NCBI RefSeq assembly: GCF_949628265.1
Contig: NC_088787.1
Coordinates: 33,468,844-33,532,843, forward strand
Direction: 5' to 3'
DNA length: 64,000 nucleotides
Origin: Cloeon dipterum
Taxonomy: Eukaryota; Arthropoda; Insecta; Ephemeroptera; Baetidae
Position numbers and translations under genes: made by a program. The notes beneath the pieces were generated by a model, which did not search any database, had not been told where the DNA came from, and saw only the letters and a list, made by a program, of their open reading frames with translations. Shown here in pieces: positions 4,201-64,000 of the stretch (its first letter is position 1; every line of letters starts with the position of its first letter).

Positions 4201-5810
4201 ATTGTAACAGTTTTGGTTCTCCAGAGGAAGCGAAAACAATAGCCTTACGAAACACAGAATGATAAAAACGTAAAAAATGAATATAAAAATTTTAAAAGTG
4301 AGAAAAACGCGACAGCCGAGGGTGTGATTGCGTCGGCACGCGCCGAGCGCAACGTCATCCCCGGGAAAAAATATTCCTGCAATTGTAGAGCATCCGTCAT
4401 GCGAAATTCTGACCCGAGATGAAAAACACTCATTTGGCTACCGACCCAAGGTTCGGGCAGAAATCTCGATTCGTGTCCCGAGTCGACATTTTATAAATGC
4501 CGGCTCGCCAGCCTGGTTGCCTTGATTGTTGCAGGCGCTGGTTCGAACTGTTTATTTTTATAAGCGACTACCGATTGATTTTGGATCCACGCGCACCACT
4601 TGTTAGCGTGGCTTTTTTTCTACAGAATCGAGCGAATATGAAAAAAGAAAATAATGAAATAGAAACTACGGAAACATCACGCCTGTAACGCGTTCCGAGG
4701 GATTTCCGTTGAGATTTCTGCGCGAACCTTGAGCCCCATCTGTAAATTGCACTCGGCTCCCGGCACGCGCCTCATTTGAACCCATCAAGCAATAAATTTC
4801 GTTGAGGAATGTGTATGGTAAATTATCAGTCTCCTGTATTTGTACATAATATATATGATCGAACACAATGAAACTCGCAATTCAATTCGCTACCGAGGAA
4901 TCCGGAGCCGCGTGTAGTCACCGAGACAAATTTCTTTCATACAATGTAATTTTGCTTATCCGAGAGCTCTTCAATTCCCTTCCCGTAGAATGTAATACAT
5001 TTTTATATGAAAACAAAAAAAGAATAAAAAGAACTTAAAACCTTACTTTTCTGGTGTCTTCATTCCTACTTCACTTTTGAATTTGTCAAAGATCTCTTAA
5101 AACTAATTATTGGAATTAAGAATCTAAAATGGTATTCTTTGATTAGAAGCAAGCTTATTGGCTAGTTTAGGTTGTCATGATTGGAATACATTTCTTTGTG
5201 ACCTACATTGGAAAATTTGACTCCTGTAATTTTAGTAAAATTTGGTTCAAATTGATGCACTTTTATAAAGTTAGCCGTGCACATGTCTTAAAACAATAAT
5301 TAAGGAATTATTCTTGGCTCTTTATATGCCTTATGAACTCCTCACTCAAGTGTTACAAATTGCACATTAACAAAAAAAGTGATATTTTTTATGGCAACTA
5401 AAATTTGCTTTTGTGAGCCGTGCATTGAACAAAATACATAATGATTTTTAAATATTCTTGGACTGTTGAAAAGGTAAAGGAGGATTTAATTTAGAAGGAA
5501 AATAAGAAGTACAATAATTATTAATCCCTATTGATGTTACCAAGTCAGGCTCGTGTTAGTTGAATTTTTAATATGATGATAAATTACAAGTTCAGGCTAC
5601 TCTAAATGATTTTTCAACTAAAACTGGTTTTACCTGATGTCCCTAAGAAATACTTTTGTAATCATTGTTAATTGGGAAGGAAATTAAAAATCTATTATGT
5701 GTTGTCGAACTATTTATATTTCTATCCATTAACGATAACAGCAGCATGAGATAAAGCAGATACACCTTACACACGATTTTGACGATACACATAGGTAGTA
5801 TGTTTTTAAT

Positions 5811-26746: not shown

Positions 26747-29700
26747 TCAAGCATTTTCCTCAGGTATAATAGACACTTTTGGGGCCCTGCAACAAAAATT
26801 TCACGTTTTAAATCATAAAATTGATTTTCTAAAATTAATATACCTCTTATTCTGAAGAGCCATTCTCTTCCTGGCGCTCCTCCTTGGTCCACTCTCAGAT
26901 GCAGTCGACTCGTCCTCAGACTCAGTGTCAGCCTTCCTTTTCCTGCTCATGGTGGAGGCCTGGCTAGCAAAAGAGGAGTCCGATGACACAGACGCGCTTC
27001 TGTTCCTTGTCTTTATGCTTTCAGAAGCAGGCTCAATCGATGCTGACCGCGAGCGACGCCTCGTCCTTACAGTGGCGCTCAGTGGCTCAGACAACTCTGC
27101 CACAGCTTTCCTGCTTCGAACTCTTCGAGGAGAGGTTGCCATCGGCTCTCTGGATGAGGCCTCAGGGGAATTCTCCTCCTTTTTCTTCCTGGGCATACTT
27201 TTAGGTTGCTTTTCTGGTAAGCTTGTTTCTGGCTGGGTCTTCTTCGCCCGAGATTTCACAGGACTCTTTTGAGGGGTAGCAACTTCGGGCAAGGATCTCG
27301 GCTCTTGGGAGGCACTCCTCAAGTTTCTCCTTGTGATAACAGGAGGTTCAGGCTTGGCTTCGACTTTCTCCACCTTTTTCTTCGCGGCTGTGGTCTTGGT
27401 TGGTGGTTTTGCCTCCTTCTTTACCACTGCACTTGCTGGTTTTGATGTGGAAGCAACCACTTCAGGCGCAGTTGGGCCAACTTGAGCCTTCTCTTCTTCA
27501 CGTTTTCCCTTTACTGATTTTGGTGCTGGCTTGGATTTCACAGGTTTTGGGGCAGGCTTCTCCTTACTCTTCATGGCAGTCTCTTTTTCTGCAAATAATT
27601 TAGAATTATTCTATAGGAGCTAAAAGTCCAATTATTTTAACCACAAGAGAATTTGTGGAATGAAGACCGCACCAGTATTGAAATCTCAAGGTGTTAATTA
27701 GACAAATTAATTCCTAGAGAAATAAAGACCTAACAGTAATTTAAAATTTTACTTTTCCATCTAAAAATTTCATTTCATTTTTGACACCGTATCAAACTAA
27801 AACACAAATCTTTTCACTTACCAGGCTTAGGCACTGTCTTTTTCTTCTCCATTACCATCTTCTTGGTCTTCTCGGGTTGCAGCTCCTTCTTTGCAACCTT
27901 CGTCTTAGGCATATCCATTAATTTCTTGCCTTCCTCAGTCTGAAGCAGATCATCCAACTGCGCCTCAAGTGTTAAGCCAAGAGCCTTGCTTCTCAAAGCT
28001 GGTGTTTCCTTTGCGCTCTCCTTAACTTTCGCTGGCTGCCTAGGACCAGGAGGTCTTCCCCGCGATCTTGGAGACTCTTTATTCGTAGTTTCTTCAGGCG
28101 CGGTTTCTTCCTCAATTGCAGCTAGCTCGTCTAGAGGCTGGGCAGATTCTTGAGGAGCTGGTTCTGTGGCCTTCTTCCCAGCTTGCCTAGAGGACGGGAG
28201 TCTTCTCCTCGGTCTTGGAGACTCAAGGGGTGGTGTCTGCTCTCTATTTAAAGTGTCTTCAGGCACGACTTCCTCCTTAATTTCAGCCAGCTCGTCTATT
28301 GGCTGGGCAGTTTCTTGAGGAACTGTTTCTGCCTCCTTCTTTGCAGGCTGCCTCAAAGTTTGAGGTCTTCCCCGCTTTCTTGGAGACTCAAGAGACGGCG
28401 TCTGCTCTCTTTTCCGTGTGTCTTCAGGCACCACTTCTTCCTCAATTTCAGCTGGCTCGTCTAGAGGCCGGACAGTTTCTTGAGGAGCTGGTTCTGTAGC
28501 CTTCTTCCCAGCTTGCCTTGAGGACGGGAGTCTTCTCCGCGGTCTTGGAGACTCAAGGGGCGGTGTCTGCTCTCTTTTCAGTGTGTCTTCAGGCACCACT
28601 TCTTCCTCAATTTCAGATGGCTCGTCTATTGGCTGGACAGATTCTTGAGGAGCTGATTCTGCCTCCTTCTTTGCAGGCTGCCTCAAAGTTTGAGGTCTTC
28701 CCCGCTTTCTTGGAGACTCAAGAGACGGCGTCTGCTCTCTTTTCCGTGTGTCTTCAGGCACCACTTCTTCCTCAATTTCAGCTGGCTCGTCTAGAGGCTG
28801 GGCAGTTTCTTGAGGAGCTGGTTCTGTAGCCTTCTTCCCAGCTTGCCTTGAGGACGGGAGTCTTCTCCGCGGTCTTGGAGACTCAAGGGGCGGTGTCTGC
28901 TCTCTTTTCAGTGTGTCTTCAGGCACCACTTCTTCCTCAATTTCAGATGGCTCGTCTATTGGCTGGACAGATTCTTGAGGAGCTGATTCTGCCTCCTTCT
29001 TTGCAGGCTGCCTCAAAGTTTGAGGTCTTCCCCGCTTTCTTGGAGACTCAAGAGACGGCGTCTGCTCTCTTTTCCGTGTGTCTTCAGGCACCACTTCTTC
29101 CTCAATTTCAGCTGGCTTGTCTAGAGGCTGGGCAGTTTCTTGAGGAGCTGGTTCTGTAGCCTTCTTCCCAGCTTGCCTTGAGGACGGGAGTCTTCTCCGC
29201 GGTCTTGGAGACTCAAGGGGCGGTGTCTGCTCTCTTTTCAGTGTGTCTTCAGGCACCACTTCTTCCTCAATTTCAGATGGCTTGTCTATTGGCTGGACAG
29301 ATTCTTGAGGAGCTGATTCTGCCTCCTTCTTTGCAGGCTGCCTCACAGTTTGAGGTCTTCCCTGCTTCCTTGGAGACTCAAGAGAAGGTGTCTCCTCTCT
29401 CTTCAGTGTAACTTCTGGCGCGGGATTTTCTTCAATTTCAGCCAGCTCATCTTCAGGCTGGGCGGTTTCTTGAGGAACTGGTTCTGTGGCCTTCTTTGCA
29501 GTCTGCCTTGAGGAAAGAGGTCTTCTCCGTGTTCTTGGAGGCTCAAGGGGTAGAGTCTGCTCTAAATTCGGAGTGTCTTCAGGTGCTGATTCTTCTATTG
29601 TGGCTGATCTGTCTGGAAGCTCAGCAGTCTCTTGAGGAACTGGTTCCATTGACTCCTCAATTGGCTTCTCTGGAACCACACTTTCAACTGGTGCGACAGG

Positions 29701-32700
29701 TGTAGTCTGCAACAAGAGAATAATAAATTGAATTACAACGTGGAAAAATTAAGTGTCAAAATACTAACAAAAAACAACAGAATAGATTTATAACTCACAA
29801 ATTCTGTCCATGCAAAGTTCGTTTTAAAAATCTTCAAAAGTTGGTTTTAATTGTTGTCTTATTGTTTAAATTAAGAATTCGTGAATTTTAGCATTCCTAA
29901 ACAATGCTATCTCCGAATTTAGAAATTGTTGGGTATACAGCATAAAAATCGAATAAAAATGTCACAATAATTCCTTAATTTTTCCAAATGGAAAATGTGT
30001 TTAGATTAAAATATTTTAAAATGCATAGGAAAAAAAATTTAATTTTTAATTTGATTTTTTTGCAAATCTGGAGACGATTTAGTCAGGCTTACGTCATTTA
30101 AAAATAATTTGAGTCAAAATTTTGCCCCTTTGGTCAGAAATCCTGCAAAATCCGAATTTATTATATCCTTAATTCCTTTTACTGACGAATTGTCCAAGTG
30201 TAAAACTTACCTGTATGGAATCCATTTCAAATGGTACATCTTCAATCTTGGGTTCAATTTCAGACTGAACATTTTCTTCAGCTTCTTCTAAAGGAGCTTC
30301 AATCTCCTCATCAACTTCCATGGGCTTCAAGAAGTGAAATCATAGTCAACATTTGATGGACATAAATTGTTGAAATCTTACTGTTAAGGATTCTCGCTCA
30401 GTTTTAATTTCAGTTGTCTCTTCAAGAGTGTCCAGAGAATCCACAATTTTTGAAGGAGAGAAACACGATTGAGAAGATTTACTAGAATTGGTATCAATGT
30501 CAGGAGAAACTGGCTCCATCTTCTGTAACAGCTGCATGTTAAAGACAAGAAATTTCTCATACAATCACTATCACACCATTTTAGAAATCTTAGTTGGCGA
30601 TTCTATACTTCCATCTGAGGAAACTAGTATCACAGTTTTATTGAGCGTTACGTCAAACTCATGGTCCACCTCAGCCAAGTCTTCAGCTGGCTTAGCATTG
30701 TGCTCCGCCTCTAGTTCCAACAAGTCTCGCTCAAGCGTGAGGTCAACGGTGCGGTGGAAAACAGAGTCATATAAATTGTCTTCTACAAATAAAGCAAAGT
30801 TTAAAATTTCAAGTTGGTTTGCTAATTGCCGGAAATTATTACTTTTAGCGACCGATTCAGACACTATTTCAGCAGTTACTTCTTGTTTGACGTTGATATC
30901 CGCCACCATTTCAGGTTCCAGTTCAGTCGCTGTACTTATGTTTTGACTGTAAGCACAGAATTCAGTAATTTATTCATTAGAAAGAGAAAATATTTATTTA
31001 CCTTATATGTGTGTCCGTTTCTTCTGAGGTCTCTGGTATAGATGGTTTCTCTTGGGTCTCAGGTGTGGACAGTTTTTCAGGGGTCAGCGGGACAAATGAC
31101 AAAGATACGGGGGCTTGGTCTTCATCAAACGGACTTCTGCGAATCGATTTTCGCGGGCTAGGTCTCTGTGGAGGTTTAGGCAACGAGCTGCAAAAGCAAT
31201 GGTTGAAAGAAAAAAATCATTTTAAAAACATTTTGCATCAAATTAAACACCAAGGTAGTATTTTTATAACCATCTATTTTTACTACTGGTTAGTCAAGCC
31301 CCTAATTAGTATTCATTTTTTAAGCAATGCAACTCAGGTTTTTTTTTCTCAAATTTTAAACATTGCAATTTCTGTTTATAGAAAGCAGCTTTCTCCCAAT
31401 CCTTGATTTTTAAGTCATTTTATTTCTTCCTCTAATTCAAGAGAAGGCAAACAACCGACACATAAATAAAAAAAAACGTAAGAAATCAACAGACATTAAA
31501 AAAGTTTATCTGTGACGTGTGCAGAAAACTTTAGTTTTTCTCTTGTAAACCTTACAGGAACTTTCCAACTTGTTTGCTTAGAGGTATGCAATTTAGTAAT
31601 TTCATTTATTATTCATAATATAAATAAAATCAATAAATAAAGGCTTATAAAATGACACTAAAATGAGTCCTTCCTATATCTTATAAATGAAAAATATGAA
31701 CTCTAAAATTATTTGAAAATCAAATAAACCACAATGGATTAGAATTTGCATGAAATTCTATTCAGCGGTTAAAAGGTAGCCAGGGGAAATAGGATGAATC
31801 CCATCTAGTAGACTCATTGTCGGAAATAAAGGTGTGTTGTTAAGGACAAACTTTGCATTGCAAGAACCTTCAATACTAAATGAACATACCTGTAATCTAT
31901 GGAGTCACAGGCACTTGGGCCAGGTGCCAGATCCATGGGAGCCAAGGCTGGGGGCTGCCAGAATTTGCTGGGGGAGAAATCCTGGTCGATCAAGTCGTCT
32001 GACTCGTCACCATCAGGCTTGGTGGGCGTGAGATCCGTGTGTTCAAACATCTCGGAGCGCCGCTTCTTGGTTATGGGACAGCCATTCTCATCCTCATCAT
32101 CAGGCAATGTGATAGTTACGTCCATGGCTGAGGTGAAGCTCGCAATGCTGGAGTTGGGAGAGGTTTTGTCCGAACAAATGGAGAAGAAGGATTCGTTTGA
32201 TGCGCTTTGCGGAGACAGCTTATCGCTTTCCGCTTCTGTCATTGAGGCATCTTCCTCGCATTCCGACAATACAATAGCAGGAACAGTCAGGATGTCCGCG
32301 GCGAGTTCGGTAAGCTTGCGCTTTCGCTGCGCAGTGTTGACGAACGGAGCGACCCGCTGGATCAACGGAGTGCGTGTCTCGTATTCAAACGAGTCCTCAT
32401 CTTCAATAAGAACCTCTTTCCTCTCTGGTGGAGCGTCTGTTTCAAAATACAGAGAGTTGTCTTTTTCGGCCACAGTTAAACCGGTATCAACGGGAGTCGA
32501 GGTGTTGTGCTCAACAATGTCAGCAACGAAATTGTGGTCAGGCTCCATGACGTCGCTCACGGTGGACAGGGAAGACTTGGACAGCGGCGAGAAAAAGGCT
32601 TCACCCTCCAGCTGCTTCACACTCTCCAGCCGCGGGTGCAGCACTGGGCTTGGATTGGAAAACTCGAACACTGAGTCAGGCTCTAGAGACGTTGCAGGTG

Positions 32701-53885: not shown

Positions 53886-55187
53886 ATCGGTTGTTTGTGT
53901 TTAATTTGTCCAGGAAATTTGCTACATGAGATGCCCATTTTATGGCAATGATGATACTTTTTAAAATTAAATTATTCTTGCCTGTTTTGTTGCGTTTCAA
54001 AAAAAGATTTTTAAAACCAACTTGTTGGCATTGGGATTGAGTGTGAATCAATGCACCATTTTCGGATGAATTCCGCTCGGACGATGTAGCACGCGCTGCC
54101 GATTGTCATGGCTCTCGATTGTCTTGCTTCCATGTTAGATTTCAAAGCATTTTTGTAAGACGGTGTGATCAGGTCCCCCGCCCTCCCCAAAAATTATTGT
54201 ACTATCTCGAAGGAAAAAAAGTGAAATTAATTTATTCTTATTTACTCTGTATAGCATCGTTAAACAAAGCATGTATCGCGTGGTGTATTTAATCAGTTTG
54301 ATTTCTGCAAATTGTGCGAATAACCAGGGAAGAAGAATGTTGCCTTTTCCCAGATTTCACTGGTCCACCTAGAGTTAATACGATCAATGCGCGTAATTAT
54401 GTGATAATAAAATGTGATGGGTCAAAATTAATAGAAAAAAATATGCTGGAGTCCTTCTTGGCTTTACTTTATAAGCATTTTGTGTGATCATTTTATCTCT
54501 ACGTAGTCTCTATCTGCTGTCTTGATTTGCCTCCGCCGCAATTCTTTCTTGTCTAGCTGTGAGATTTTATTATTTATTCTTTGCATCTACGCTCTTCGTT
54601 TTAGCTAAAGGCTTTTAGTTGTGAGGGCAACCAAAGATTTGTTGCAAATTTTTATTTTTCTGTATGTACTAATTTCAGTCATGGTAACTTGGAATTTATG
54701 ATTTACTAACGACTCCCTTAGTAGAAACTTGTAACAGGCCAAGTTGAAATTCAAGAAAGGCAATGTTCTTGACTACGAGACTGCATTCTATGGATTTTGT
54801 GGTGAAGAAAGGATAATCTATTGTGTAGCATATTAGTGTATATTTAGTCCTTGTAAAAATCAATAAAATCATATAATTGAAAATAATTTGTTGGCGTATC
54901 TTATATTTTAGTGACAGTTCTGAAGAAAAAGAAATTGACTGAGTGGGGTTTCCAGTTTTATTTACCTTAGTAGACAATTACAATTTGTGTATGTAATTGG
55001 ATTTGTTTGGGAGTGACAAGGAATAACCGTCGAAATCTATTTGTTCCTCTCTACAGACAAATTCACAGAAAAAAAATAATAGATGATGTGCTTGCTGTTA
55101 AAAGAGGACTCTTCATTCCTCACTAATACGAGTTGGAAGTGAAAAATATGAACGCGAAGCAAGCCAGTGAGATGCAGGATCAGCTTT
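53886..55187. other. Convergent 3' region of MTMR3/4-like gene and SmD3
   Basis: No coding sequence supported. AT-rich, with alternative poly(A) hexamers on the plus strand and the SmD3 poly(A) signal at 54957-54962 on the minus strand. Confidence 0.5.
54957..54962 (-). promoter_or_regulatory. Poly(A) signal of SmD3
   Basis: AATAAA on the minus strand, about 225 nt beyond the SmD3 stop codon. Confidence 0.4.
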
Positions 55188-55666
55188 TCATCGCCGGCCA
55201 CCCTTGTCGCCGCCACCGCCGCCTCCCGGGCCACCCTGGCCTTGCCAACTGCCTCCTCTTCCTCTGCCTCCACGCCCTCGACCTCTCGCGGCTGCAATTA
55301 AAAAGTTATTTAGTTTCCAGATGAATGCACCAAGAAATTTCTGTTACCTTGCGCCCTGAGAATGGCTGACTTTCCTCTGCCGGCTGCACCACCACCGCCC
55401 TTTTGTCCTTGTCTTTTGAACATTGGTGCGTTTTTTAACATGTCAGGCAGTATCAAGAATCTAATTTTCGAGCCTCTAATAAAAACATTTTCCAGTTCAG
55501 CTGTGCGACCGTCTCTGTAAGTGACCACAATGTTTGTCATTTGACAGTTCATGTTGTCTTCAGCCTCGATCAGTTTGCCGCGGTACACTTCGCCGGTGTT
55601 GGTTTCGCACGTCACGATATGGCCTTCGGCCTCGTGAAGCACTTTAATCGGCACGCCGATCGACAT
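55188..55666 (-). CDS. SmD3: Small nuclear ribonucleoprotein Sm D3
   Basis: Two exons, 140 aa: 55666-55348 and 55291-55188 (stop TGA 55188-55190), joined by a 56-nt intron. The first 86 residues are almost identical to human SNRPD3 ([54 protein letters not shown]) and carry the Sm1 and Sm2 motifs. The tail is a Gly/Arg-rich RG repeat ([14 protein letters not shown]), the usual substrate for symmetric dimethylation by PRMT5 before loading by SMN. SmD3 pairs with SmB in the heptameric Sm ring on U1, U2, U4 and U5 snRNAs. The tail is longer and more Gly-rich than the human one. Confidence 0.98.
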
Positions 55667-57261
55667 AGTTCTTTTTTGCGATTAAATTCACTCGCGAATT
55701 AAGTCTGTGGTCACAGATGATCGCGGATTTTCCAAAATTCGCCGGCTAACGTACAGACGCTTTGTTTACAAACTACGGCGGAGGCAACACAATACGATGG
55801 TGCTGCCACCAAGGTGTCAATAAGGAGAGTAAAGGTAGGAGATGCGAAGCAACAGCCAGAGTCACCAAGAGAGGGGCAGGAGTGGGGGGCGAACGTTGTT
55901 CGCTCGCTGATTGTCGGTGTTGCATATTGTTTGATCATTGTTGAACCTAACGGAACTCAATCGCAAATTTAATAAAGAAATTCGCATTTAAACTTGTTGT
56001 TTCATTTCAAAGCAGAAGCTAATGAACATTCAGTCTTTTGTAATTAGAGGTGCGTAAAATTTCATACTTTATTCCAGAGCGTATTCCTGACAGGAAATGG
56101 AAACAGGGAAACAAGAATTCCTGCTTAGGCCTGGAATTACGGCAGGACAGGAAAATATTGTTCAGGAATTTTTCTTCAAAACAATTCCATTCTTGGTCAA
56201 TTTTATATCAAATATTTCATAAAACGACTTTTCATTCTGATGCTGTTTTAAAAAGTTTGCTTTATTTCACGTAATTAAATATTCAGCCAAAAAATTATCC
56301 ACGGCGTTTACAATTTTGCTGTAAAATTAAAAAAAAGCACAATTTTAGTCGAAGAAACAAGCATTTTACCGACAAAATCTACTTTATTAAAAACATTTTG
56401 TCGGGGTTTTCTGCAATATTTTTTGTGTTTTAAATATTCTAAATATTTTGTTGGATGCTAAATTCTGTGCGGGGTGTGTATTATTTTTTCCGTTTAGTTC
56501 ATAAAGGGGAATTAGATGAATTAGGAATTATATATCAACTCAGACACAATTCAAAAACTTTGAAATTCTTTTAAAATGTCAAAATGGAAGTTTCAAATAA
56601 TTAAAAGAAAACAAAAACAGATATAAAAAGTTATAAAAATAGATGAAAGACCATTTTATTTCATGGAATTAAATTTAAGAAGAAAAACAGGAATATAGCT
56701 GACGGGGGAGGAAAGGGCCGGAAAAACCTTTCTTGCATACGCTCTACATATTTACTTGAACCATATAATTTGAAAATTGAAAAATTCCTGACCAATACTG
56801 AATACGAATTTTCAGTTAGAGTAATTTTATTTCAATTATTCTGTAACTAATTTTTTTTGTTACCTAATTATTCTCAAATTTCAAGTTCAATCAAATTCTT
56901 TCGAGCAAAAATTTAATGTTAAATTACCGAATCCTAATTATTCTCAAATTTCAAGTTCAATCAAATTCTTTCGAGCAAAAAATTTAATGTTAAATTACCG
57001 AATTTAAAAATCTGCGAATGATGTTAGTTGGTAAATCACAACTAAACAAGCCTGATATGAACATGCCTTACAAGCTATAGATAAACAAGCAGCAAAATTT
57101 TTCAAATTGAAAAGTTTGGCAAGATTTTTTTTAGTTTATTAAGGAATTTGCAATCCAGAGTTGTTTGGTAAACATTTCTCCCAACATATAAGCTAATTGA
57201 TTACTTGGTCTAGTTATTGTGCTTTATTCTAATTTATTATAGTAGGTACCCACTTCTATAA
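55667..57261. promoter_or_regulatory. Divergent spacer between SmD3 and the THAP-transposase-USP gene
   Basis: The SmD3 promoter and 5' UTR lie at about 55667-55930. The remainder is AT-rich with no supported exon. A tandem 70-bp duplication is at 56863-57003. No obvious terminal inverted repeat of a P-type transposon was seen. Confidence 0.4.
56863..57003. repeat. Tandem direct duplication, 2 x 70/71 bp
   Basis: Copy 1 (56863-56932) and copy 2 (56933-57003) both run from CCTAATTATTCTCAAATTTC to ATTACCGAAT. They differ by one extra A in an A-run, so the duplication is recent. It ends about 260 bp upstream of the THAP-transposase-USP start codon. Confidence 0.9.
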
Positions 57262-60200
57262 ATGCATATCTGCAAAGTGTGCAAAATAAAGCGGAGCCAG
57301 AACCAAGGATTATCTGTCGGGGAGAATCCTAGTCTGTTCAAATTCCCAAAAAATGGGGACCTTTATAATCTCTGGAGGTCCTATTGTGGAGATGAAGAAC
57401 CAACAGCATCGTCACGCTTGTGTCACGTAATCAGAGTGCAGAAACTTTTATAATATATTATTAATGAGTTAACAAAATTTAGCTCGAATTTCATCCGTGC
57501 ATGTATTCGGTGTCGACCGAATCTGGGCGCACCATACGAAAACTGTGCCCTGGGGCCGTCCCAGGTATAATTCAAATATATCTGATTGAATTTAATTTTA
57601 ATTTAGTTTCACAAAACTACACCCCTCTGTAGGACCGTTTGTTCCATGCTTGGATGAAGGGATTCGTGTGGAATATGACAAGAAGGAAGCGTACAGTGAG
57701 TCTCACACCACAGGAGTTACCTATTTCTTAATATAAATCGCCTCTTTAGTTCTGGGTCTCGGCCATCAAGAACTGAATCCGTCTAAACAGGTCGCCTTTC
57801 TCGAAAATTGCTTGTGGGAGCTCAAGAAAGAGGTAAATCCAAGTTGGAATGTAATAAATATAAAGTATAAAATTTTAAAATTAAGTACGACAAGTTGGAA
57901 GAAGGCTTAAGCCGTTTCCTGAATAAGGACCAATTGGAAAGAATTAAAGCGGACCAAACCAAAAGATGTAACAAGCCGTGGAGCGCAGACACAGTAAATA
58001 AATGCATGAAGCTGTGGCTGAGGATGGGCACAACGGGCTACGAAGAAGCCCGAAATGGCAACAAGTGGCCATTAGTGAGCCTGAGGACTCTACAAGAAAA
58101 CCTAGAAAAGATTGATTTTGAGCCAGGCTGTTTGGATGCTGCCTTGAAAGTAATTCAAGAAAAGGTGAAGAAGGTCCCTGATATGAACATTGGAATACTT
58201 TCCCTTGACGAGATGGCAGTGAGGTGAAATTTCTGTAATTTACTTTGAATATTTTCTGATAACAATTTTCAGGCAAGGAATCTTTTATGACAAGAGATTT
58301 AAAAGGCTCATTGGTCTCGAAGCTGAAAGCCTCACTAAGTCGTCAGAGGGAGAAATTAAAGCAGCCACTCATGTGAACACAGTAATGCTTCGCTCAGTGA
58401 AGTATCATACGAAGCAACTTATTGCATACGACTTCACAGGTATAGAATTAGATATTTAGGATATTTAGTTGTTGACGAAAAAATAAATTTGTAAATTTTT
58501 TTAAAATAATTATAGGCCCTTCAATGGACGGACAGAAATTGTGGACATATTTGTGCAGCGTAATTTCCCAGCTGCATAATCATGGTTGCTTCGTCGCAGC
58601 AATATCCTCCGACATGGGATCAAGCAATATAGCCATGTGGCGGTGCGCAAACATTTATGCCAACCGCTCTGGCGTGAATGTGACTACTGCACATCCAGCA
58701 GACCCATCCCGTGATTTAGTAGTTACGTCTGATCCGCCACACGCATTGAAAGCTGTGAAGCGCATGGCGCTGAAGTACAACATATTTGTGCCCCAATGGT
58801 TCCAGGAAAAATACACATTACCCACGAGAACTGTGAAATTGCGAGAGCACTTGTCACAACTTATAGAAATTCAAGAACAGCACAGTCTCTTTCTGGTACC
58901 TAATCTTTCAAGACAACAGCTTGTTCCGAAGAACTGGGAGAGCATGAGGGTTTCAGATGCATTGGCTGTTTTCAACAAAAAAGTAATATATTATATTATA
59001 CTTGTTTTAATTAATATTTTAGGAGTAGAATCGCTTTCTGTTTGAAAATTCTGTTCTTTTAACTAATTTTGAAGCGCAAAAATGGTTCAACTGGAGTAAA
59101 TATTATGATAATTCAAAGAGCAGCTTTCCTTCCACTTAAAATAATGTGCAAAAACTTCTATGAACCAATTTGTTTTCAGCGTGGCATCAATTTTGTTTCT
59201 AAAGTTTGTATTTCATTTTTACTTGATATCAATTTTAAATGTGCCTATTACAAAATTGATTTAGAGAAAACCATATTTTTATTTTTTCTAGATGGAGTTA
59301 TCGAATTTGATATAGAAAAAAGAGATTTTGTTAGCCATTAACTACGGGGGCGCATGATTAATTATCAGAATTCATTTTCAAAACTCGCATCCATTTTTAC
59401 TTTTATGTTCAAAAAATGTTTGATAATTCATACTAAAATTTACTAAATATATTTAGAGCATTTCATTATATTTTAAGTTCAATTTTTTATAGTTACACGC
59501 GTTTCAGGTGTCGGTGGCCATTGAAGTATGCGTCACAAAGCAACTGCTTCCGACAGAAGCTCTCACGACTTCGCAGTTTATATCTACAGTAACCAGCTGG
59601 TATGACATTTTGACTGCGAGGTGCAAGAGCGATGGCTTGAAGAATGATGGCAGCAAAGACAAACTGGAGCTCCTGAACATGACAAAATTGTTATTTCAGC
59701 AGATCGTGCCCCTCGACTCAAAGCAGCAGTGGCTGCAAGCAATGACTGCAGTCATCATTTGCACCGAAGCCGTGCTGACATTATATAGAATGTTGGTTAC
59801 AGAAGGTATATTTATCACTTTAAGATCCTGCATTTTCGATTAATTGCAGCTACCTAATTCTAGAGCTGTGATATATTTTATCAGCTATAGTAAAATAAAA
59901 AATGCGAAATTAAACAAAAAAAATATATTTTAGGGCAATCATATTGATTGGAGTCACATCTTAAGACAGCAAAAAGGTTTGAAATTAAATATGTTCAGCT
60001 TTAATTTGACTAAATATAGTTCGCTTTCATGCATCTGGTAATTCCTAATAATAATTTTTAATCGTGTGATCGGCATGACTGTATATTCTCTTACAACCTG
60101 CATGATAAAACCTTCGCTCTATATCTTTTAATTGGTAATTTAATCTTTTGCATTTGGATATCTCTAAGTCGATTTTGCATGATACTTTTTGAAAGTCTCA

Positions 60201-62477
60201 CCAATCATACGTAATTTTTAACGAAAATACTATTTCAGGCGATTTGGAATACCTGCTGCCAAGCAGAGTAACAACCGAGTGCAACGAAAATATATTTTCA
60301 CAAATTCGAGTGGGTGGCGGCGACGCATACCCTACCGCACCACAAGTGATTTCTTCATTGAAGAAAATAATGGTAACTCAGGCTCTGCAGCACCCAAGAG
60401 GCTCAAGTTACTCGGAGAGCGGTGATGAAAATCTCGCTACTTTACAAGACTATCTCTCCAACTCCCGGCCCACTCCAAGTCCAAACCCAAACGACGAGAG
60501 TCTGCCAACGACTGAAGACATGTCTGAAGTCTCCTCCTCAGACTTTGAGCAGTTGGCAACATTCCACATGGCTGGTTGGGCCATGAGAAAGGTAAAATTC
60601 ATTATTAACTTTAAAAGTAAATTTATTCTTTATAATTTTCACCAAATAGGTTTTCAAGCTGTCCGAATTGAAAACATGCGAACAATGCTTGGACAACATT
60701 TTCTGCACGGCAGAGGAAACAACAGTAGCTGTGCCACCCCTACCGTATCTATTCACCTTAACACTATCTAACGGCTATTTGAAATACGTTGGGTACGAGA
60801 CCTATATGGTGGCACAAAAGCTCGTGGAATGTTTCAAGGCCGCTTTCAAATCATCAGAGTCAACTGTCAACCCTGAGCTTGCAGGGCAATTCCGATTACA
60901 GTTCGAGAAGACCCAAGTTGCGGTTAACTTTGCTACCACAAAAGATCATCATGGTCCAAAAATAGTGGCAAAGTTTACTGAGTATCTGACTGAAAGTCTG
61001 ATTAAGCGCCACTGCAAAATCAGAAACAAGGAGTCCTCAGCAAAAAATGTGACAAACTATGCAGGGAAGAGTTCCCAAATGCGGACGTCAGTCGAAACTG
61101 TACGAGTTGCCGGTAAGCTGATAAATTTATTGATATTTCTAGTATTTAACAAATCACACTAATTTATAGAAAAACGGGGAGCTCCCGAGAGCAGCAATGA
61201 GACAGCCAAAAGGAAAAAGACTTCTGCAGTAAATTCAAAGAAAAGTTAGTGATTACTCTATTAATGAACAATTATTCGTTACACAGGGGATTCCAAGTGA
61301 CGTAGGATTGAGCCTCGGAGGGAGCTCAGCCCTGAACTCATTACTACAAATCCTGTACTCCAACGACCGAGCAGTGCAGAGAGTGTTGGATCAGGAAATC
61401 GAGTATGAGTAAGATTTAAATTAATTATGCAATGTGTAAATGTATTTGGTTAACTTTTTAACATTAGAATTTTGAATATTAATCTCGGATTCCATTACTT
61501 CTCTATTCAGAAACAACCAAGATGGTTCCAAGCTGACTGAAGAATTAAGCAACATGTTTAAAAAGATGAGGGATTCTAGTCTCCAAGTGGAGCAGGCAAA
61601 GTCACTAGAGCAGCACTTGACTCAGTTGTTTGGATCCTTGGAAATGTCAGGAGAAGAGTTGTGCAAGTTAATTTTCCAACGCCTTGCTGAGGTGAAAATC
61701 CCAAATACTTTTAGTTTAGTATATAAATTAATCGGCGCTGATTTTATTTATAGGAGCCCAAAGGAAAGCCACTGACTGACCTCATCCAAGGCGAAATAAC
61801 GTCCAAACTCAGTTGCTATGTGTGTGACATATTTGAACTGGTAGTCGAAAGATTTACAGTCCTCAATTGTGCACCAAATAATACTGATCATCTTCAGGTA
61901 ATGCCATGATAATCACTTAAAAATTTAATGTCCATATAAATTTATATATAATGTATTTAGAAAATGGTTAATCAACTGAACGTGACCGAGACTCGAGACG
62001 AGAAAGAGTGCAAGACTTGCCAAATCACAGGGGGAATGTGCAGCACCAGCTACATTTCAAAGTCTCCACAATTGCTAGTTGTTTATGTTGACAGGCAAGT
62101 GACTTAAATAGAGCTTACTTGTTTTATTTTTAAATGTTTTCTTAATTTAATAGGAAGGATCACAACTTGTCGATAAACACGACGCCCCTTAAAATTGAGG
62201 ACGTTCTGAACATCACCCTCCATTCTGGTAGGAAAATAAAATACCAGCTCTTTGGAGCTTTCATATACCAGGGTCATGACCGATATCTAGCTTTGGCAAA
62301 GCGAAGGAACAGGTAATAATAAATCTAAAAGGTTCAGCAGTGTTATCACATTTGTTATTTAAAAATACTTTCAGATGGTGCTTGTATGAAAATGAGCTGT
62401 GCAAAAAAATCTCCAAAGCAGAATTCGACAAGTGCTTTTCTGCCTATGTTAGCATTTTATTTTATGCTGTATTGTGA
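57262..62477 (+). CDS. THAP-like finger / P-element (THAP9-type) transposase / inactive USP-fold fusion
   Basis: 17 exons, 1126 aa, all phases compatible: 57262-57426, 57483-57564, 57633-57695, 57750-57832, 57886-58223, 58273-58439, 58516-58982, 59508-59805, 60239-60591, 60650-61112, 61170-61228, 61287-61408, 61511-61691, 61754-61897, 61961-62094, 62154-62312, 62375-62477. Residues 1-84 are THAP-like (C4, C7, FKFPKN, W38, C54, AVP). Residues 100-826 are a P-element/THAP9 RNase H-like transposase: SLDEM (D239), SSDMGSSN (D332), NENIFSQIRVGGG (E571), then the family's C-terminal MAGWAMRK...CEQC motif. After a basic linker (KRKK), residues 847-1126 look like a ubiquitin-specific protease: LGGSSALNSLLQIL at the Cys box with Ser860 for Cys, CYVC and CKTC finger pairs, SPQLLVVYVDR, GHD (His1081) and AYVSILFY. 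Whether it is an active element or domesticated is not known. Exons 15-16 are joined by a GC-AG intron. Confidence 0.8.
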
Positions 62478-62521
62478 GACTACACAACCCGCCCAACGTT
62501 TTCAATTTTTTTTTGTTAATG

Positions 62522-62527
62522 AATAAA
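62522..62527 (+). promoter_or_regulatory. Poly(A) signal of the THAP-transposase-USP gene
   Basis: AATAAA only 45 nt after the stop codon of the USP-like exon. I see no such hexamer between the transposase and USP-like parts (61113-61286). Confidence 0.6.
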
Positions 62528-62969
62528 GATTTTCATTACTTTACCAGTGGAAACTTTTTCTATTAGAGTGGAAATAAAAAAGATCCCTATATTTGAATGA
62601 ACTCTAATTATGTTGTTGGTTTTCAACGCTCAGAGGTTCGCTTGATTTTTTTTTATGATTTAACATCGAGCAATATTTTTTTAATTATTTTTAATAAACT
62701 TATATTTTTAGTGTTTTACCCCGTGATCACAACTTAAGTGGGTAATTTGATTGTAATGCGTTTATTTAAAAATTTAGAGGCAACACTTTCGTACGATATC
62801 ATTTTGAGTATCACATACGGTGGCAGTCTATTAAAAGTAAAATAATATTACCTGAAGTACAGCGACTTGTTTGTTTATAATGTGGCCTCTTTGATGATCT
62901 TCTTGCCTCGGCACACCTGCCTGATACCCGTCTTTCTCAGCCATGACCTCGCCCTCTCCGCTGCAGTCG
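62528..62969. other. Convergent intergenic spacer
   Basis: AT-rich, with no supported gene. It separates the THAP-transposase-USP gene from the 3' end of the partial right-edge gene. Confidence 0.5.
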
Positions 62970-63924
62970 TCAGGACAAATAATGCTCTATCTGCTGGGTT
63001 ATGCCTGGGCCCAGCTGATTCCTTTCGCCCGCATCCACGACATCCCCGGCAAGACTGCACTTGGCTTGATCCTTCCCTCCTGTCAAATTGATATAAATAA
63101 AGGATGAGTTTATTTGTTATTTTTTCCAAAGGTTGACTGACCCATCAAAGGCGCTCTCGTGGATCTGTAGTTTTCAAGTCTATCCATTATAAATATATCC
63201 AAAGGAACACTCTGCAAAGAGATATTTAAAATAGCATTTACATAGTGCCTTCAACCTCTCAATATTCATGTCCTAAATGATATTGATGCATATAATAGTC
63301 CCATTAAGATATATCAGACAAATTATGAAGTAATGACAAGAATTTAAATTAACAAATAAAAGCAACCCAGGCATTTAAACGGTTGCTTGCATAGAAACGA
63401 AAGTTCAACCTTCAAACAGCCCATTCTCAGTGTGTTCTTAAAAACCATGCAATTTAAGTGAAGAGAAAATGGAAGTCCACTATTATTATTTTCAAGGGGT
63501 GGCTCAGGTATCTATTGCTGAGAGCATCTATTGCTTTAAATTTGCATTTGCGTGTACGGATCGTAAAATACCATAATACATAACAAACATAATGATGATC
63601 ATAATTGACAAATAATAAAAAATATCGTACCTAGTCGAATAATATATTATAATTACGACGTTAATAATTATTATCGCTCTATTTGAATAAAAGGTGGCAT
63701 GCTAATATATTTAATCAATGATAAAATGAACGCTCTTAATTTGTAATGCTGGCAACTAGCTTTTAAATCCCATTTTCAAAAATCGAGATGAGCCTTGCAA
63801 AAACAATTTGCAATCTTACCTACGCGCAGGGAAAGCGTCTGCAAACGTGGATGTTCATACAATCTCATACTTTTCAACGTTCAATGACGACTCTTCCAAA
63901 TCGTAAACAACACCATCATCAAAC
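62970..63924 (-). CDS. Unrecognised gene, 3' end only (runs off right edge)
   Basis: Three exons with canonical GT-AG junctions and matching phases: 63924-63871, 63209-63142, 63079-62970 (stop TGA 62970-62972). They encode an acidic stretch (FDDGVVYDLEESSLNVE), then VPLDIFIMDRLENYRSTRAP, then a Gly/Ala-rich end finishing in GITQQIEHYLS. I do not recognise the family. The model rests on splice signals and phase consistency across three exons. Exon 2 needs the second of two closely spaced AGs (CAGAG|TGTTCC). The 5' part would be right of position 64000. An overlapping 84-codon minus ORF and a 74-codon plus ORF over the last exon are probably shadows. Confidence 0.45.
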
Positions 63925-64000
63925 CTAAAAGTTAATCGTGATGTAAATAATTGAAAGGAATATAGTTTTGTATATTCGTACATATATAATAATTTTTTCC

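Follow-up and report, generated by a model that had tools for sequence, protein, structure and literature searches.

A candidate gene joining a P-element/THAP9-type transposase to a catalytically dead USP domain in Cloeon dipterum

Host-transposase fusions are a known kind of gene, and many of them retain chiefly the DNA-binding part of the transposase. USP-fold proteins lacking activity, such as USP39, PAN2, and USP53/54, have been described as well, and we know of none that is joined to a transposase. In CSB-PGBD3, a host part and a transposase are joined in the coding sequence by splicing (PMC3459987). The Drosophila P transposase carries its catalytic acids at D230, D303, and E531, and retention of intron 3 of the P element switches the form of the protein; internal deletion is common among P derivatives, and human THAP9 is without terminal inverted repeats (TIRs), according to PMC7776569. 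Here we analyzed a stretch of 64,000 nucleotides of the Cloeon dipterum genome (Ephemeroptera, Baetidae; NCBI RefSeq assembly GCF_949628265.1, contig NC_088787.1, positions 33,468,844 to 33,532,843), hereafter the window. At the sequence level, positions 57262–62477 of its forward strand present a strong gene model in which a P-element/THAP9-type transposase is joined to a USP fold. We lean, by a modest degree, towards reading this locus as a single-copy, immobile, domesticated host gene, in which the catalytically dead USP part would serve as a docking module.

Seventeen exons between 57262 and 62477 (+) join into a single open frame of 1,126 residues, with compatible exon phases throughout. 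A TAA codon directly precedes the start ATG at 57262, the stop TGA lies at 62475–62477, and a motif scan located the poly(A) hexamer AATAAA at 62522–62527, shortly after the stop, as had been described in an earlier note made from the letters of this DNA. The introns are 49 to 525 nt long and of the GT-AG type, except for one GC-AG intron at 62095–62153 with the donor CAG/GCAAGT. The initial edges of exons 15–17 were out of frame and were replaced by this GC donor together with shifted exon edges. The earlier note had divided the model into ten exons for a THAP-like finger with a P-element/THAP9-type transposase and seven further exons continuing in matching phase into a USP fold. This division agrees with our analysis, in which exons 1–10 (57262–61112) carry the transposase, exon 11 is a linker, and exons 12–17 (61287–62477) encode the USP part. 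Its description of the linking introns as the usual 57–60 nt fits the two introns at the junction (57 and 58 nt); the range over the entire model is wider, as given above.

The transposase half (residues 1–846) is supported by sequence comparison as a P-element/THAP9-type transposase. In Pfam, it matches TNP-like_RNaseH_N (PF21787) with 80.7 bits (cut-off 24.6), THAP (PF05485) over residues 7–82 with 26.5 bits (cut-off 23.9), and the putatively GTP-binding TNP-like_GBD (PF21788) with 29.2 bits (cut-off 24.8) over positions 27–110 of the 119-position profile. Among PDB sequences, only the Drosophila P transposase 6P5A matches at E 0.001 (E 4e-23, query 26–601). In this alignment, D239, D332, and E571 coincide with D230, D303, and E531 of 6P5A, and all three catalytic acids are thus kept. 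Because the full DDE triad is retained, the protein would be allowed to cut DNA beyond binding it; the earlier note had been silent on the triad.

Along the gene, exon 1 (57262–57426, phase 0) encodes the N-terminal half of the THAP-like finger and exon 2 (57483–57564) the remainder, with the AVPG motif at residues 80–83. After exons 3 (57633–57695) and 4 (57750–57832), the RNase H N-terminal domain begins in exon 5 (57886–58223), which carries the first catalytic acid D239, and extends into exon 6 (58273–58439). Exon 7 (58516–58982) contributes the second acid D332 and the beginning of the match to the GTP-binding insertion domain, which is completed in exon 8 (59508–59805; match at residues 410–494). 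The third acid E571, followed by an acidic stretch, resides in exon 9 (60239–60591), and exon 10 (60650–61112) encodes the C-terminal region of the transposase, which found only itself in the protein search of the genome (190 Mb, 10 contigs). The RNase H core with the DDE triad and the GTP-binding insertion domain, together with a finger that is here a putative, THAP-like one, are common to this protein, the Drosophila P transposase 6P5A, and vertebrate THAP9, whereas the split into ten exons and the USP domain at the C-terminus set it apart from both. The best-scoring other P-like gene in the genome (L021, C4:31.43 Mb) is 22–23% identical. Two pairs of P-like genes, L016/L017 and L025/L026, show equal Pfam scores within each pair while lying on different contigs, which suggests that P-type families have recently been moving in this genome.

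The second half (residues 847–1126) is supported as a USP fold by its match to UCH/USP (PF00443) over residues 856–1123, with 59.2 bits (cut-off 23.9) and profile positions 6–254 of 254. Exon 12 (61287–61408) encodes the Cys box GLSLGGSSALNSLLQ, with Ser860 in place of the catalytic Cys, and exon 13 (61511–61691) leads from the Cys box to the zinc ribbon. The two CxxC motifs of the zinc ribbon are both present, CYVC (residues 968–971) in exon 14 (61754–61897) and CKTC (1012–1015) in exon 15 (61961–62094), the latter followed by the GC-AG intron; such motifs are not universal among USPs. Exon 16 (62154–62312) encodes the His box, with Arg1083 in place of the catalytic His, and exon 17 (62375–62477) the Asp/Asn box with Asn1099, the C-terminus, and the stop TGA. 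These residues were assigned from an alignment with USP21 and USP exons from three places of the genome, and the replacements at the Cys and His positions bear out the earlier view of a USP without catalysis. Since a gap of three residues precedes the catalytic His position in the alignment, it is just conceivable that His1081 is the shifted equivalent of this His; the loss of the Cys is independent of the gap.

The USP half found no PDB sequence at E 0.001, the best weak matches being USP47 (E 0.014) and USP21 (0.024), and it is too distant from solved USPs to be placed among them. A tblastn comparison with 21 USP places of the genome, which sample its USP genes in part since one exon-level search alone listed 60 matches, gave nothing better than E 0.25, and the viral_contigs collection contained no relatives. 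The open frame and the usable splice sites in all six USP exons, despite this distance from the compared USPs, argue for the upkeep of the domain. It would resemble the inactive USP39, PAN2, and USP53/54 in having a USP fold without active catalysis and a likely binding use. With exon 12 beginning in phase 0 and scant N-terminal extension ahead of the Cys box of the domain, a missing 5′ USP exon is conceivable. In such a case, a USP-like gene would have exons 5′ of 57262, and the transposase gene would be nested inside its intron. This arrangement requires an exon that was not observed, together with an intron at least 4 kb long, compared with 49–525 nt in our model, and leaves exon 11 unexplained; we consider it very improbable.

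The two halves are bridged in phase by the 59-nt exon 11 (61170–61228), which encodes a basic linker, EKRGAPESSNETAKRKKTSA, and is flanked by a 57-nt and a 58-nt intron. Its GC content of 0.49 contrasts with 0.21 and 0.26 in these flanking introns, and GC3 is similar in the two halves of the gene (0.506 and 0.502). The donor of exon 11 (61229) scores 5.1 bits, within the 3.5–10.6 of the other donors of the gene, and is the best GT in 61100–61287 after 61113. Among the 256 GT sites of the entire gene it ranks 21st, and the acceptor at 61286 takes 47th place of 347 AG sites, so the splice signals are fair, not outstanding. An alternative end of exon 11 at 61245 was rejected as a non-GT join, with the GT at 61245 scoring 2.1 and being out of frame; in frame, length, and score alike, the donor at 61229 is the suitable one. 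Matching phase alone is weak evidence, as we estimate that it arises by chance in about one of three cases. The contrast in GC content and a test with control stretches carry more weight. An in-phase, stop-free bridging exon at least as good as exon 11 was found in 41 of 6,340 control stretches (200 in any phase), and in 30 of the 3,254 with a GC content of 25–42%, a rate to be read as descriptive because the controls overlap and the thresholds were placed just under the observed values. The controls were taken from the window in 20-nt steps on both strands, the gene included, and introns 10 and 11 were left out when the splice scores were derived.

Several observations, in this paragraph and the next two, weigh against the reading as one domesticated fusion gene. 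In the THAP-like finger, Glu57 in exon 2 occupies the aligned position of the zinc-ligand His, one of four ligands, and the finger appears degenerate; His55 and His59 adjoin Glu57. The DNA-binding role of the finger therefore needs a caveat, as one of the four zinc-ligand positions is unconserved. On this point the earlier note calls for reserve. Its transposase, its USP fold with the loss of Cys and His, and its in-frame model are supported, and we saw no sign of mobility. The UCH match, in turn, depends on the joined model, because three of the six USP exons (12, 14, and 16) found no UCH match when scanned singly. Docking or ubiquitin binding by the pseudo-USP is our inference.

Alternative products of the junction have also to be considered. 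Retention of the 58-nt junction intron (61229–61286) would lead into the in-frame TAG at 61247–61249 that follows exon 11, and a transposase-only product ending at 61249 is possible. An internal promoter might likewise yield a product with the USP part alone. From its last stop (61230) up to exon 12, the USP frame lacks an ATG. Scanning for single start exons with an ATG in 60300–61286 and a phase-0 GT donor able to reach exon 12 gave 12 ATGs, all within transposase exons 9 or 10, and a USP-only product would thus share exons with the transposase. The ATG at 61059 could use the genuine donor of exon 10 (61113) and would provide the USP part with an 18-codon leader. These sites, along with the one-in-three chance of a phase match, favor two products or two genes, with the transposase ending near 61249 by read-through of exon 11 and the USP exons either expressed from an internal start or representing what a broken USP gene has left at its 3′ end. 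However, a separate USP start would have to overlap the transposase coding sequence, the in-phase bridging exon is well formed, and each of the six USP exons has an open frame and can be spliced. Moreover, the interval 59985–62234 on the + strand contains no start of an AATAAA or ATTAAA, in line with the earlier statement that no poly(A) hexamer lies between the halves. On balance, we find two separate products unlikely.

The DNA relatives of the transposase part, taken from the 40 of 71 candidates that were scored, comprise two other close copies, L037 and L038, about 88–92% identical and both broken. L037 matches window positions 56751–57648 and 60050–60254, has lost an internal segment, and carries a nested insertion. 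L038 matches 57800–58484 and contains stops at residues 139 and 213. Because both end before window position 60255, they are uninformative on the junction. Over the exon sequence that the gene shares with L037 and L038, 24 nonsynonymous changes at 632.5 sites and 19 synonymous changes at 168.5 sites give a pN/pS of 0.34 (Fisher p 0.0004), a value that mixes lineages because both relatives are now dead, and that may reflect selection on a then-mobile element. Of the 15 indel events relative to L037 and L038, one falls in exons, which make up 814 of the 1,700 aligned columns (p 0.0008); two other computations gave nearly the same numbers. On the side of the main reading, these comparisons suggest that selection acted on the transposase protein during some of its history, be it in a host gene or in an element. 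The nested insertion in L037 (~4853–5678) is a side observation: it is about 0.8 kb long and shows, by eye, 12-nt TIRs and an 8-bp overlap resembling a target duplication.

No second intact transposase copy was found in the genome, either among the 40 of 71 DNA candidates scored or by protein, where all further matches are at most 37% identical (36 of 36 candidates scored). No second copy of the USP part was found in the genome by protein or DNA, and transposase exon 7 had no relatives in viral_contigs. The longest exact inverted match between 55000–57261 and 61113–64000 is 12 nt, with a simulated mean of 12.1 and 37 of 60 simulations reaching it; between 55000–57261 and 62478–64000, it is again 12 nt, with a simulated mean of 11.4 and 20 of 60 reaching it. 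Of 86 inverted pairs, the 25 longest included no convincing TIR pair, nor were TIRs seen by eye at the ends of L037 and L038. Copies with common ends were absent, the only two relatives having differing, ragged ends. Looking in this genome for extra copies yielded ragged fragments, and there were no TIRs beyond chance. A mobile element was dropped as the principal explanation because no TIRs, common ends, or intact copies were found. Human THAP9 likewise lacks flanking inverted repeats.

A mobile unit that arose when a P-family DNA transposon captured a USP domain, and that left its last intact copy at this locus, would account for the intact DDE triad and for broken relatives of such identity at two places, one of them internally deleted. 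Such an element should be weighed against the lack of any other USP copy found by DNA or protein, the TIRs found neither at the unit nor at the relatives' ends within the comparisons above, and the raggedness of these ends, which are unlike each other. We assign it a low probability.

For the reading as a single domesticated fusion gene, we propose that one promoter upstream of 57262 would give rise to one mRNA. Exon 11 would add a basic, nuclear-localisation-like linker separating the parts, and the protein is most likely nuclear. By homology, the THAP-like finger and the core would bring it to particular DNA sites, where the transposase part may still nick, cut, or synapse DNA. The pseudo-USP would offer a surface on which ubiquitin, or a chromatin partner carrying it, could dock, and this docking may control the site of action of the transposase or recruit proteins to old transposon ends. 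The protein could thus be likened to host-transposase fusions on the one side and to scaffold pseudo-USPs on the other. A more specific version, to which we give little credence, is a cutting-competent domesticated P-type transposase sited by a dead USP reading chromatin ubiquitin, in which the fate of the 58-nt junction intron, spliced out or retained, would switch between the fusion and a transposase-only form. Retention of the junction intron would bear a formal likeness to that of intron 3 of the Drosophila P element.

In the surrounding sequence, a dispersed repeat just 5′ of the gene (56500–56694) occurs at at least 37 other places of the genome with 75–81% identity. Ahead of the start codon, 56863–57003 contains a 70-bp tandem duplication that is single in the L037 relic. 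A run of six TTAGG units was looked for and not found. Just 3′ of the gene, window positions 62864–63519, which were the sole other match of the DNA search with the 3′ query and lie outside the gene, have a 77.5% copy at G000:C1 near 11.836 Mb (L039 3972–4641). The open frame at 62878–63144 (−) has no Pfam match. Farther away, an open frame of 644 residues at 27814–29748 (−) is Pro/Glu/Lys-rich, shows internal repeats of about 80 residues by eye, and has no Pfam match at E 0.01.

As in CSB-PGBD3 and other host-transposase fusions, a host part and a transposase stand here in one coding sequence by splicing. In the CSB-PGBD3 type, host exons lead into the transposase, whereas here the transposase leads with its own start codon, its catalytic acids are kept, and a dead USP forms the host part. 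Among the literature matches listed, there was no P-element/THAP9-USP fusion, and the terms UCH, USP, deubiquitin, THAP, and P element do not occur in PMC12062965. Judged by these matches, a USP fold attached to a complete P-type transposase would be a new combination among the host-transposase fusions. A whole transposase including its DDE triad would here join a fold of the ubiquitin system without catalysis of its own. If made as one protein in cells, it would be an unusual host gene derived from a jumping gene. If transcribed and conserved, it would provide a direct link from transposon-derived DNA targeting or cutting to ubiquitin signalling.

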